From positions 1 through 45,061 of the forward strand of contig PWDW01000023.1 of the NCBI GenBank assembly GCA_003553225.1: 45,061 nt of DNA, given 5' to 3'. Source of the stretch: Halanaerobiaceae bacterium (GTDB lineage: Bacteria > Bacillota > Halanaerobiia > Halanaerobiales > Halarsenatibacteraceae). A model generated the notes under the pieces. That model ran no database searches, had not been told where the DNA came from, and saw nothing but the letters and a program-made list of their open reading frames with translations. Each line of letters starts with the position of its first letter. The stretch's first letter is position 1. The position numbers were made by a program, and so were the translations under genes. This document shows, one piece after another, positions 34,462 through 37,527 of this stretch.

Positions 34462-34740
34462 TTATTCACTCTCCGCTAAAGAATCTTCATAAAATGACAT
34501 TAGGCGAGCATCATATTCAATTCCTTCATCTGCCAGTTCCCGATTAAGGCTGCTCATTTTTTCATATCCTTTTCGCAGTTCTCTCCTTATCTCCTTTCTT
34601 CTCATTTCTTCAAGATACAGCCTGGTAGCTTCCCGGAAAAAATCACTGCGGCTGCTTTCATCCTGCTTAAGATAACCATCAATTTCCTGAACTAAACTAC
34701 TGGGTAAATTAACAATAACTTCTTTCAAATTATCCACCAC
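34462..34740 (-). CDS. mazE: MazE-type ribbon-helix-helix antitoxin (EndoAI-like)
   Basis: 92-aa partner of MazF. The N-terminal half is a ribbon-helix-helix DNA-binding domain (KEVIVNLPSSLVQEIDGYLKQDESSRSDFFREATRLYL). The C-terminal half, beginning at the RRELRKGYEKMSSLNRELADE stretch, corresponds to the toxin-binding part in EndoAI. Two consecutive GTG codons (34740, 34737) are possible starts after GGGGGG; the second has better spacing. It would also repress its own operon. The tail motif recurs in the small gene at 34830-34982. Confidence 0.9.
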   Translation of the reverse strand: MVDNLKEVIVNLPSSLVQEIDGYLKQDESSRSDFFREATRLYLEEMRRKEIRRELRKGYEKMSSLNRELADEGIEYDARLMSFYEDSLAESE

Positions 34741-34818
34741 ATTACCCCCCGGAAAAATTTGCTTATTTTATTTATACCAGCTGTTTTGGCTGCAGATTAG
34801 CAATTAAAAAAGTAAAGA

Positions 34819-34844
34819 GATGAGACTTTTTATTCAGTCTCATC
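34819..34844 (-). terminator. Terminator overlapping the end of the 50-codon gene
   Basis: GATGAGACT (34819-34827) pairs perfectly with AGTCTCATC (34836-34844), with the TAA stop in the loop. The minus strand continues TCTTTACTTTTTTAATT. It makes the small gene a separate transcription unit from mazEF. Confidence 0.8.
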
Positions 34845-34982
34845 CTTAATCCTGGTTAAATATTCTTCTGCCAGTTTCTGATTCAGAGGTGCCATTTTTT
34901 TATACCCTTCCCTCATTTTTCTGGCAATTCTTTTTTTCTTCTCTTCAGAAATATTCTTATCCCTGCTCAGCCCACTGCTCAT
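34830..34982 (-). CDS. Small MazE-tail-like protein (50 aa)
   Basis: A short gene of 50 codons from ATG 34982 to TAA 34830. AGAGGTGA sits about 4 nt upstream, a TTGACA-N17-TATACT promoter lies at 35032-35060, and a terminator overlaps the stop. The sequence from about residue 20, ARKMREGYKKMAPLNQKLAE, matches the C-terminal region of the adjacent MazE-like antitoxin (RRELRKGYEKMSSLNRELAD): 11 of 21 residues identical, including GY-KM--LN--LA-E. It lacks the ribbon-helix-helix part. It could be a DNA-binding-free antitoxin, a competitor for MazF, or a remnant kept by chance; the intact signals argue for a real gene. Confidence 0.8.
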   Translation of the reverse strand: MSSGLSRDKNISEEKKKRIARKMREGYKKMAPLNQKLAEEYLTRIKDETE

Positions 34983-35031
34983 AAGCTCACCTCTCGGTTT
35001 ACTAATTATCTTTCATTTTTTCTTATAAATC

Positions 35032-35060
35032 AGTATATAATATTAATTTTTAACTGTCAA
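35032..35060 (-). promoter_or_regulatory. Sigma-A promoter of the 50-codon gene
   Basis: Perfect TTGACA (35055-35060), 17-nt spacer and TATACT (35032-35037) on the minus strand, about 45 nt upstream of the ATG. It lies just after the helicase stop codon. Confidence 0.88.
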
Positions 35061-35098: not shown

Positions 35099-37330
35099 TT
35101 ATAATTTGTAATAAAGTCCTTTTTCTTTAACATAATCCAGTAAATCCCGATAGGTTTCATGACCGATAATAGTTTCACTATCACCAACAAGAATTAACTT
35201 CCTCCGGGCCCGGGTCAGGGTGACATTAAGCCGCCGCAGGTCCCGTAAAAATCCAATATTTTGCTGATCATTACTGCGAACAAATGAATTAATCACCATC
35301 TCTTTTTCTCGACCCTGAAAACCATCAACTGTATTTATTTCCAGTTCTTCTGAACTGCTGAGACTATTCAAATAATCGACCTGATCTTTATAGGGGGTAA
35401 TAACAGCAATCTGTGCGGGATCCAGCCCCAGCCGCAGTGCACTATCTACAATATCCATTACAATTTCAGCTTCAACTTTATTGTCATAGGAATATGAGCC
35501 AGCCAGTGATCTTTCCCGGGCTTCCATGGCACAGGTGTCCAAAAATACCACCGGATGTTGCGGAACCAGAGCAGTTTCAGTAAAACAATCACTTTCTGCC
35601 GGCATAACACCCAGATCAGCCAGAGTATGCTCCCTAACCTGATCCGCGCTTTTAAGTTTACCCTCATAAAAATGCTGATCGGAAAAGCCCATAATCGTAT
35701 CATGCATGCGATACTGAACCTGCAGCAGTGACCAAAATTCATTACCATGTATCTCATAAAGCCTTTCAAAAAGCGAGCGGCTGAGTCCTTTTTGAGCTGC
35801 CTCTTCATTTAAGACTGTGGGCGGCAGCTGTTTGTGATCACCGATTAAAACAACTTTTTTCCCTTTATTTATGGGGATTAAAGCAGCTGGTTCTGTGGAT
35901 TGAGTTGCTTCATCTATCACTATTAGCTCAAAATTATGTCCTGACATTAATTCTGATCCGGCAGTAGAATTAGTGGCACATACTACCTCAGCTTCTTCTA
36001 TAAGCTCCCGGGCAGCTTTATCTTCCAGACTGTTAATTTTTTCAAAATATCCATCTATCTGTTCCTGTATATTTAACCATTCAGCCATCTCTTTTATTTT
36101 TTCGGGAGGTACTCCCCGGGAAGATTTTCCCTGTTCTGCTTTTCTTCTGATCTGTTCATCACTCATACCCCGGCGCCAGCGCCCCCCGGGATGGGTTAGA
36201 TCGTCCTGTTTGTCCAGAAGATTTTGGGCCTTTTGGCGTAATTTTTGTGCTTTTTTATAATCGGGATGTTCCAGAACCTGATAATCGAGAGTATGCTCCC
36301 TCAGCAGGGGGGTTACTCTCAGAGGATGTCCAACCCTTAAAACCTGAACTCCAAAATCGGCCAGTCTTTCCACCAGATTATCCACAGCTATATTTGAATC
36401 AGCAGAGGCCAGTATATCCAGCCCCTGTTTTATACCCTGATTGATTATTTCAATGGCAGTTACGGTCTTTCCCGTACCCGGAGGACCCTGAATTAAATAA
36501 AAATCTTCAGCCTGCAGTGCCTTTTGAACAGCTCTTTTTTGTGATTCATTTAATTTTTCATCAGTCCATTCTTTGACTTCAATCTCTTTGCTGCTCCATC
36601 TAAGATCCCGTAAACCCAGCAGCCTGTCTTTCATTTCATCCTGTTTTTTAACTTCATCAAGTGCTTCCAGCATGCGCTGATAGGTAATATCATTTACATA
36701 AAGATCCATTCTCAAACCTTTTCCATAAACAAAGGAATCAGGATTGTTGTCAAAAACAACCGTCAGGGAATATTTTGTTTTTTCAGCAACTGTTCCGGTC
36801 GGATTATCATCAGCCAGGGGTTTATTTTTACTTATCATCACCAGGTCACCAACACTTATTTCCGTTTCCGGTAGTTTTTCTCCGGCCTGCTGGCGAAGAA
36901 ACTTAACCATTGGTTTATTTCCAAAAGCTGTTCCTTCATCTCGACCTTTAAGGTGAAGCACAGCCCGACCTTTTTTTTCTCTTTCCCTGGGGCTTAGTCG
37001 TTTAATTTCCAGTTCATGCTGTTCCATTTCTTCTATACGTTCCAGCTCAACAAGTTTTTTATATTTTTTGATATAATCTATAATCTCTCCATCCACCAGC
37101 TGTTCCTTATCCCGGGGATAAACATTTACTTTGATACCCCCAATTCTATTTCCATCCATAATATTTACAACTTTTTTAGCAACTTTATCCTTGATTTCTA
37201 CCTCAGCTTTTTTTTCTTTGATATCAATTTTACCAATATCATCACTGGCAATCTCTGCTTCATTTATAAAAGCTCCCACAATATCTCCCGGTCCAATTTC
37301 ACCATTTATATCGGTAACTATTAAATCCAT
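35099..37330 (-). CDS. SF1 (Upf1/IGHMBP2-like) helicase with DbpA-like N-terminal domain
   Basis: 743-aa superfamily 1 helicase. Visible motifs: Walker A IQGPPGTGKT, motif Ia ADSNIAVDNL, Walker B VIDEATQSTEPA, motif III GDHKQLPPTV, QYRMHDTI, and the C-terminal DGFQGREKEMVINSFVRS and LTRARRKLILVGD. Residues 1-80 read like the DbpA RNA-binding domain of DEAD-box helicases (IGPGDIVGAFINEAEI, then DIGKIDI, then a GIKVNV strand). That suggests an RNA or RNA-DNA substrate, by inference. The ATG at 37330 has GGAG 6 nt upstream; an upstream GTG at 37375 overlaps a strong AGGAGGTGA and would add 15 codons across a perfect hairpin. Confidence 0.82.
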   Translation of the reverse strand: MDLIVTDINGEIGPGDIVGAFINEAEIASDDIGKIDIKEKKAEVEIKDKVAKKVVNIMDGNRIGGIKVNVYPRDKEQLVDGEIIDYIKKYKKLVELERIEEMEQHELEIKRLSPREREKKGRAVLHLKGRDEGTAFGNKPMVKFLRQQAGEKLPETEISVGDLVMISKNKPLADDNPTGTVAEKTKYSLTVVFDNNPDSFVYGKGLRMDLYVNDITYQRMLEALDEVKKQDEMKDRLLGLRDLRWSSKEIEVKEWTDEKLNESQKRAVQKALQAEDFYLIQGPPGTGKTVTAIEIINQGIKQGLDILASADSNIAVDNLVERLADFGVQVLRVGHPLRVTPLLREHTLDYQVLEHPDYKKAQKLRQKAQNLLDKQDDLTHPGGRWRRGMSDEQIRRKAEQGKSSRGVPPEKIKEMAEWLNIQEQIDGYFEKINSLEDKAARELIEEAEVVCATNSTAGSELMSGHNFELIVIDEATQSTEPAALIPINKGKKVVLIGDHKQLPPTVLNEEAAQKGLSRSLFERLYEIHGNEFWSLLQVQYRMHDTIMGFSDQHFYEGKLKSADQVREHTLADLGVMPAESDCFTETALVPQHPVVFLDTCAMEARERSLAGSYSYDNKVEAEIVMDIVDSALRLGLDPAQIAVITPYKDQVDYLNSLSSSEELEINTVDGFQGREKEMVINSFVRSNDQQNIGFLRDLRRLNVTLTRARRKLILVGDSETIIGHETYRDLLDYVKEKGLYYKL

Positions 37331-37340
37331 AGTATACTCC

Positions 37341-37364
37341 GGACCTTTATTACCATAAAGGTCC
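37341..37364 (-). promoter_or_regulatory. Perfect hairpin in the helicase initiation region
   Basis: GGACCTTTAT-GGTA-ATAAAGGTCC, a 10-bp perfect stem, lies between a full-strength AGGAGGTGA (37372-37380) and the ATG at 37330. If the stem forms it brings the strong site close to the second GGAG and the ATG. Confidence 0.5.
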
Positions 37365-37527
37365 AGAACAATCACCTCCTGAATTACATAAAATTTATCG
37401 GAAACTGCAGAATATTTTATTGAATATTTTATTAATTGATATATTCCACAGTAATATATTCACAGTTAAAACTAATATTTTTCTTTTAATGGTATCTCTT
37501 CCCGAGCAGAACAAATAATATTCCTGA

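Follow-up and report, generated by a model that had tools for sequence, protein, structure and literature searches.

It is an open question whether DNA binding and toxin binding have to be united in a type II antitoxin, and so is the way in which cells set the threshold of activity of a chromosomal MazF; a locus in Halanaerobiia, a class of salt-loving, oxygen-avoiding bacteria, may bear on both. The stretch of DNA analysed here (the window) comprises 45,061 nucleotides of contig PWDW01000023.1 from a Halanaerobiaceae bacterium and contains, next to mazEF, a short open reading frame (ORF) that a first-pass annotation of the sequence had singled out. According to that annotation, the frame is an intact 50-codon ORF with a Shine-Dalgarno site, a TTGACA-N17-TATACT promoter and a terminator spanning its stop codon, and it shares 11 of 21 residues with the MazE tail while having no ribbon-helix-helix (RHH) domain. 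The question is what such a gene, hereafter mini-MazE, could contribute beside a complete toxin-antitoxin pair.

All of these elements were recovered in the window (Table 1). The terminator stem of mini-MazE consists of 10 pairs, contains the stop codon and folds at -15.3 kcal/mol (z -4.9). Since no sigma-70-like site between this terminator and mazE passed the promoter scan in the window, transcription of mazEF may here depend partly on read-through from the mini-MazE promoter. The helicase at the head of the gene order belongs to the IGHMBP2 family, and its N-terminal part matches the DbpA RNA-binding domain (54 bits); a helicase of this family neighbours mini-MazE in most families of the class, though not in f7.

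Table 1. Coordinates of the mini-MazE and mazEF locus in the window, and of tail-only frames in genus g38 (positions within the respective loci)
Feature	Position	Strand	Basis or remark
Helicase	35099-37375	minus	first in minus-strand gene order, followed by the mini-MazE ORF, mazE and mazF
Promoter of mini-MazE, sigma-A type, TTGACA-N17-TATACT	35032-35060	minus	promoter scan, 11/12 matches
Shine-Dalgarno site of mini-MazE, AGAGGTGA	34987-34994	minus	GAGGTG-like sites precede the start in most relatives
Mini-MazE gene, 50 aa, ATG start, tail-only MazE homologue	34830-34982	minus	ORF, alignment, conservation, predicted helix 13-49
Intrinsic terminator with T tract	34804-34845	minus	stem at 34818-34845 overlaps the mini-MazE stop codon
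mazE, 92 aa, weak RHH domain and MazF-binding tail	34462-34740	minus	weak RHH_1 match
mazF, endoribonuclease toxin, 117 aa	34105-34458	minus	clear PF02452 member, E 7.5e-39
Tail-only frame of g38, L049	about 1697-1922	minus	MazE tail motif only
Tail-only frame of g38, L115	1447-1657	minus	MazE tail motif only
Tail-only frame of g38, L116	1512-1734	minus	MazE tail motif only

The relationship to MazE is confined to the toxin-binding part. Residues 11-40 of mini-MazE align without gaps to residues 43-72 of the neighbouring MazE with a BLOSUM62 score of 82, whereas 20,000 shuffled versions of mini-MazE scored 61 at most, and 12 of 22 core positions are identical when counted by eye (IARKM...LAEE in mini-MazE, IRREL...LADE in MazE), which comes near the 11 of 21 of the first-pass annotation. 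The MazF-binding motif of the MazE C-terminus, GY-xM-x-LN-xLA, is present. No RHH (CopG-like) DNA-binding domain was matched in mini-MazE, whose 50 residues leave no room for one and whose alignment spans only the MazE segment given above. It is a paralogue of MazE conserved beside the same toxin gene, as expected of a second antitoxin. The AF2 model consists of a single helix, with pLDDT near 90 over residues 11-40. When the mini-MazE profile was compared with PDB, the phage protein AimX (8anv, E 3.7e-5) and EndoAI, the MazE of B. subtilis (4me7, E 0.008), were both matched over the toxin-binding region, and a third match was weak and irrelevant. Similarly, the model of S. aureus MazE (NF041459) matched 25 of 37 mini-MazE proteins at E <= 0.1 (best E 4e-10), the score of the window protein (20.9 bits) lying far under the equivalog cutoff of 108 bits. 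The position equivalent to M14 of AimX holds M or L in all mini-MazE proteins and that equivalent to Y18 always holds Y, while M21 corresponds to M or to a different hydrophobic residue; the window protein has M23, Y27 and M30 at these positions and K29 in place of E20. Column counts from the mini-MazE alignment merged rows of identical name and were therefore read only alongside the list of motifs.

A scan of contigs with the single mini-MazE protein returned no matches, and a profile built from alignments was used instead; because alignment A1 was too diverse, the narrower alignment A2 served for the pattern search. The first-pass annotation had named lack of conservation in close relatives as a result that would speak against its proposal; the opposite was observed. 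Mini-MazE was found by the profile in 45 of 59 Halanaerobiia genomes, representing 25 of 30 genera and 8 of 11 families, and was missing from families f4 (contig edge), f6 and f10 and from genus g4. The next gene downstream of it is mazE in 43 of these 45 genomes and mazF in G008, and in G027 it stands at the end of a contig; in every relative it sits at the chromosomal mazEF locus. Outside the class, about 193 sampled genomes were searched with the profile, which matched MazE tails in most of them, nearly always once per genome and, among the matches listed, nearly always in frames of at least 84 aa. No second short copy of the MazE tail was found in this sample; one genome gave a second match, which was weak and fell within a frame of 192 aa. 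In genus g38, also outside Halanaerobiia, a stop-to-stop frame of 70-75 aa with the tail motif overlaps mazF; a full MazE was not seen there, and the tail-only frame seems to replace it. A phage or plasmid origin of mini-MazE was considered and rejected, as tblastn gave no match in phage or plasmid records. A scan of viral contigs yielded pattern matches with no confirmed relative, and Rfam returned only a sub-threshold chance match.

Both the protein and its expression signals are conserved. Pairwise dN/dS values of mini-MazE between species of the same genus were mostly 0.1-0.4, which demonstrates purifying selection. A promoter with at least 11/12 consensus matches precedes the gene in 37 of 44 loci (0.5% of shuffles), and a terminator lies over or just after its stop codon in 38 of 45 (1.2% of shuffles), with one further terminator, in G008, seen by eye. 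The ORF recurs throughout the class in the same place and with the same promoter and terminator, which is more than chance would produce. In the f1 genomes G001, G004, G006, G007 and G002, mini-MazE has no terminator and runs straight into mazE, and the ORF is kept. Conservation of the C-terminal 'DET' found in many mini-MazE proteins need not be a protein feature, since the 5' terminator arm encodes these residues. The MazF site UACAU was not seen in the mini-MazE mRNA against 0.6 expected, numbers too small to inform on depletion.

The likeliest reading of these observations is an accessory antitoxin. Judging from sequence, mini-MazE is probably a real small-protein gene for a tail-only MazE that acts beside the complete one as a feedback-free inhibitor of MazF. 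The protein would fold as one amphipathic helix, the M/L-x3-Y-x2-M face of which enters the groove of the MazF dimer; filling of the groove would block RNA binding, as is the case with the C-terminal helix of MazE and with AimX. Because mini-MazE lacks a DNA-binding domain and has a near-consensus promoter and its own terminator, we infer that it is transcribed separately and may supply a steady pool of inhibitor outside MazE-MazF autoregulation. Such a pool would compete with MazE for MazF, buffer the toxin and raise the threshold of its activation, so that most Halanaerobiia probably hold a second, separately produced brake on this RNA-cutting enzyme. A counterpoint is that cells with an intact MazE would seem to have little need of another antitoxin.

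Alternatively, the short ORF with its promoter and its stop-spanning terminator might be a regulatory leader, namely an attenuator of mazEF read-through in which the peptide sequence is secondary. The frequent overlap or adjacency of terminator and stop codon would suit this role, as would the window, where no promoter was detected between the terminator and mazE. However, selection acts on the mini-MazE protein, a separate promoter with at least 11/12 matches precedes mazE in 18 of 44 loci, and some f1 genomes with no terminator still keep the ORF, all of which makes an attenuator improbable. Still harder to sustain is the notion of a functionless, decaying duplicate of mazE, which could account for a tail-only fragment beside its parent and for the families and genus without it, but is contradicted by conservation, that is, by an open frame in 25 genera, low dN/dS values and conserved signals. 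The window protein further matches the Pfam family Lambda_CIII at E 4e-4, below the curated cutoff, and could on this basis be a protease inhibitor like lambda CIII, with its amphipathic helix acting as a decoy for FtsH; as only 2 of 37 mini-MazE proteins match Lambda_CIII and 25 match S. aureus MazE, this explanation is hardly credible.

Certain lineages raise a different possibility. The MA-LN--LA segment is lost from the mini-MazE proteins of genus g2 and degraded in those of g11, the gene being under selection in both; constraint is strongest in the helix before and around GY (pN/pS 0.12 in g2 and 0.27 in g11), compared with values of 0.39 and 0.70 for the LN--LA part. With this decay, binding of the toxin may not be what mini-MazE does in all lineages, and in these two genera either groove binding alone suffices or another partner exists. 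Four g2 copies (L018, L026, L032 and L034) have no LN--LA, form one unit with mazE in which no terminator is present, and are under strong purifying selection. It is conceivable that mini-MazE acquired another partner over time, or had one from the start, the GY helix binding a different groove and MazF binding being an ancestral property that was partly kept. Besides the relaxed tails of g2 and g11, the two partners of AimX, which also binds phi3T_93 (PMC10769878), would be in line with this view. On the other hand, the tail part is tightly constrained in f7, f8 and f11 (pN/pS 0.14-0.22), mini-MazE never leaves mazEF, and G008 retains it after the loss of mazE; another partner is unlikely on this evidence. 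In G008 (L012, C19, minus strand), mazE has been deleted, about 250 bp being missing between the mini-MazE terminator and mazF, and at most a short piece of the MazE end may be left. The MazF of G008 is full length, the GVRPV and AAIT segments included, and the genome yielded no further match resembling MazE. These features, from one draft genome and one locus, are consistent with mini-MazE serving as the antitoxin in G008. Reciprocal decay of the mini-MazE and MazE tails, hinted at by pN/pS in a few lineages, was rejected at the genus level (Spearman 0.14, p 0.53). In addition, when compared by ungapped profile with MazE from outside the class, the RHH part of mazE from L039, L046, L033 and L051 reaches only very low scores, the tail being kept, and DNA binding by MazE may have been lost in these lineages.

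Returning to the accessory antitoxin, a broader and more tentative proposal is that the whole class might split the functions of a type II antitoxin: the full MazE would repress and neutralise, and a constitutive tail-only MazE would set a feedback-free threshold for MazF, with MazE replaced in some lineages (G008) or a second role acquired after the loss of LN--LA. Mini-MazE would then be a conserved natural construct with the toxin-binding part only, apparently expressed outside the autoregulated operon, which would make the two functions genetically separable.

The first-pass annotation had proposed that the toxin-binding function of MazE seems to exist alone in a separate transcript and had known of no described case. 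The former part stands in so far as a conserved tail homologue that has no DNA-binding domain carries the signals of its own transcription unit; the latter does not, as AimX (PMC10769878) and the MazE of S. aureus are precedents. The principle of a tail-only MazF inhibitor or of a second antitoxin is not new, as S. aureus MazE, AimX and SpoIISC illustrate. The 5.39 million open papers searched, to which subscription journals largely do not belong, contained no mention of Halanaerobi- together with mazEF, and none of the titles and abstracts listed for additional MazE-type antitoxins describes a conserved chromosomal gene for a tail-only MazE that forms a unit of its own next to a complete mazEF. 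What appears new is that an accessory tail-only MazE, its function being predicted, is kept by most of one class beside a complete mazEF.

Among known systems, S. aureus MazE (NF041459) is short and, like mini-MazE, has a MazF-binding tail and no RHH domain; however, it is the only antitoxin there and is co-transcribed with mazF, whereas mini-MazE accompanies a complete MazE. The S. aureus arrangement, with the sole antitoxin directly before mazF, is seen only in G008, while mazE intervenes in 43 of 45 genomes. The S. aureus mazEF operon is not autoregulated by MazE (PMC4885055). In B. subtilis, the C-terminal helix of MazE (EndoAI/NdoAI, PDB 4ME7), to which mini-MazE is homologous, blocks the RNA groove of MazF (PMC6562991), but EndoAI also has an N-terminal RHH domain for dimerisation and DNA binding, which mini-MazE does not. 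SpoIISC of spoIISABC is likewise a second small antitoxin for one toxin that arose by duplication (PMC6562991); its toxin is unrelated, and since SpoIISB and SpoIISC are both short, DNA and toxin binding are not split between them, in contrast to mini-MazE. Mini-MazE also resembles AimX of Bacillus phage phi3T / SPbeta (PDB 8ANV), a small protein that shares the MazF-binding region of MazE in one homologous helix, binds and inactivates MazF with an affinity exceeding that of MazE, was modelled on MazF through the same residues as the MazE tail, and loses binding when M14 is changed to D (PMC10769878). AimX is a phage product from the arbitrium operon, which is under antitermination by AimR, whereas mini-MazE is chromosomal, lies beside its own mazEF and has its own promoter. 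This points to a chromosomal counterpart of the phage strategy, in which a small MazE-like protein inhibits MazF.
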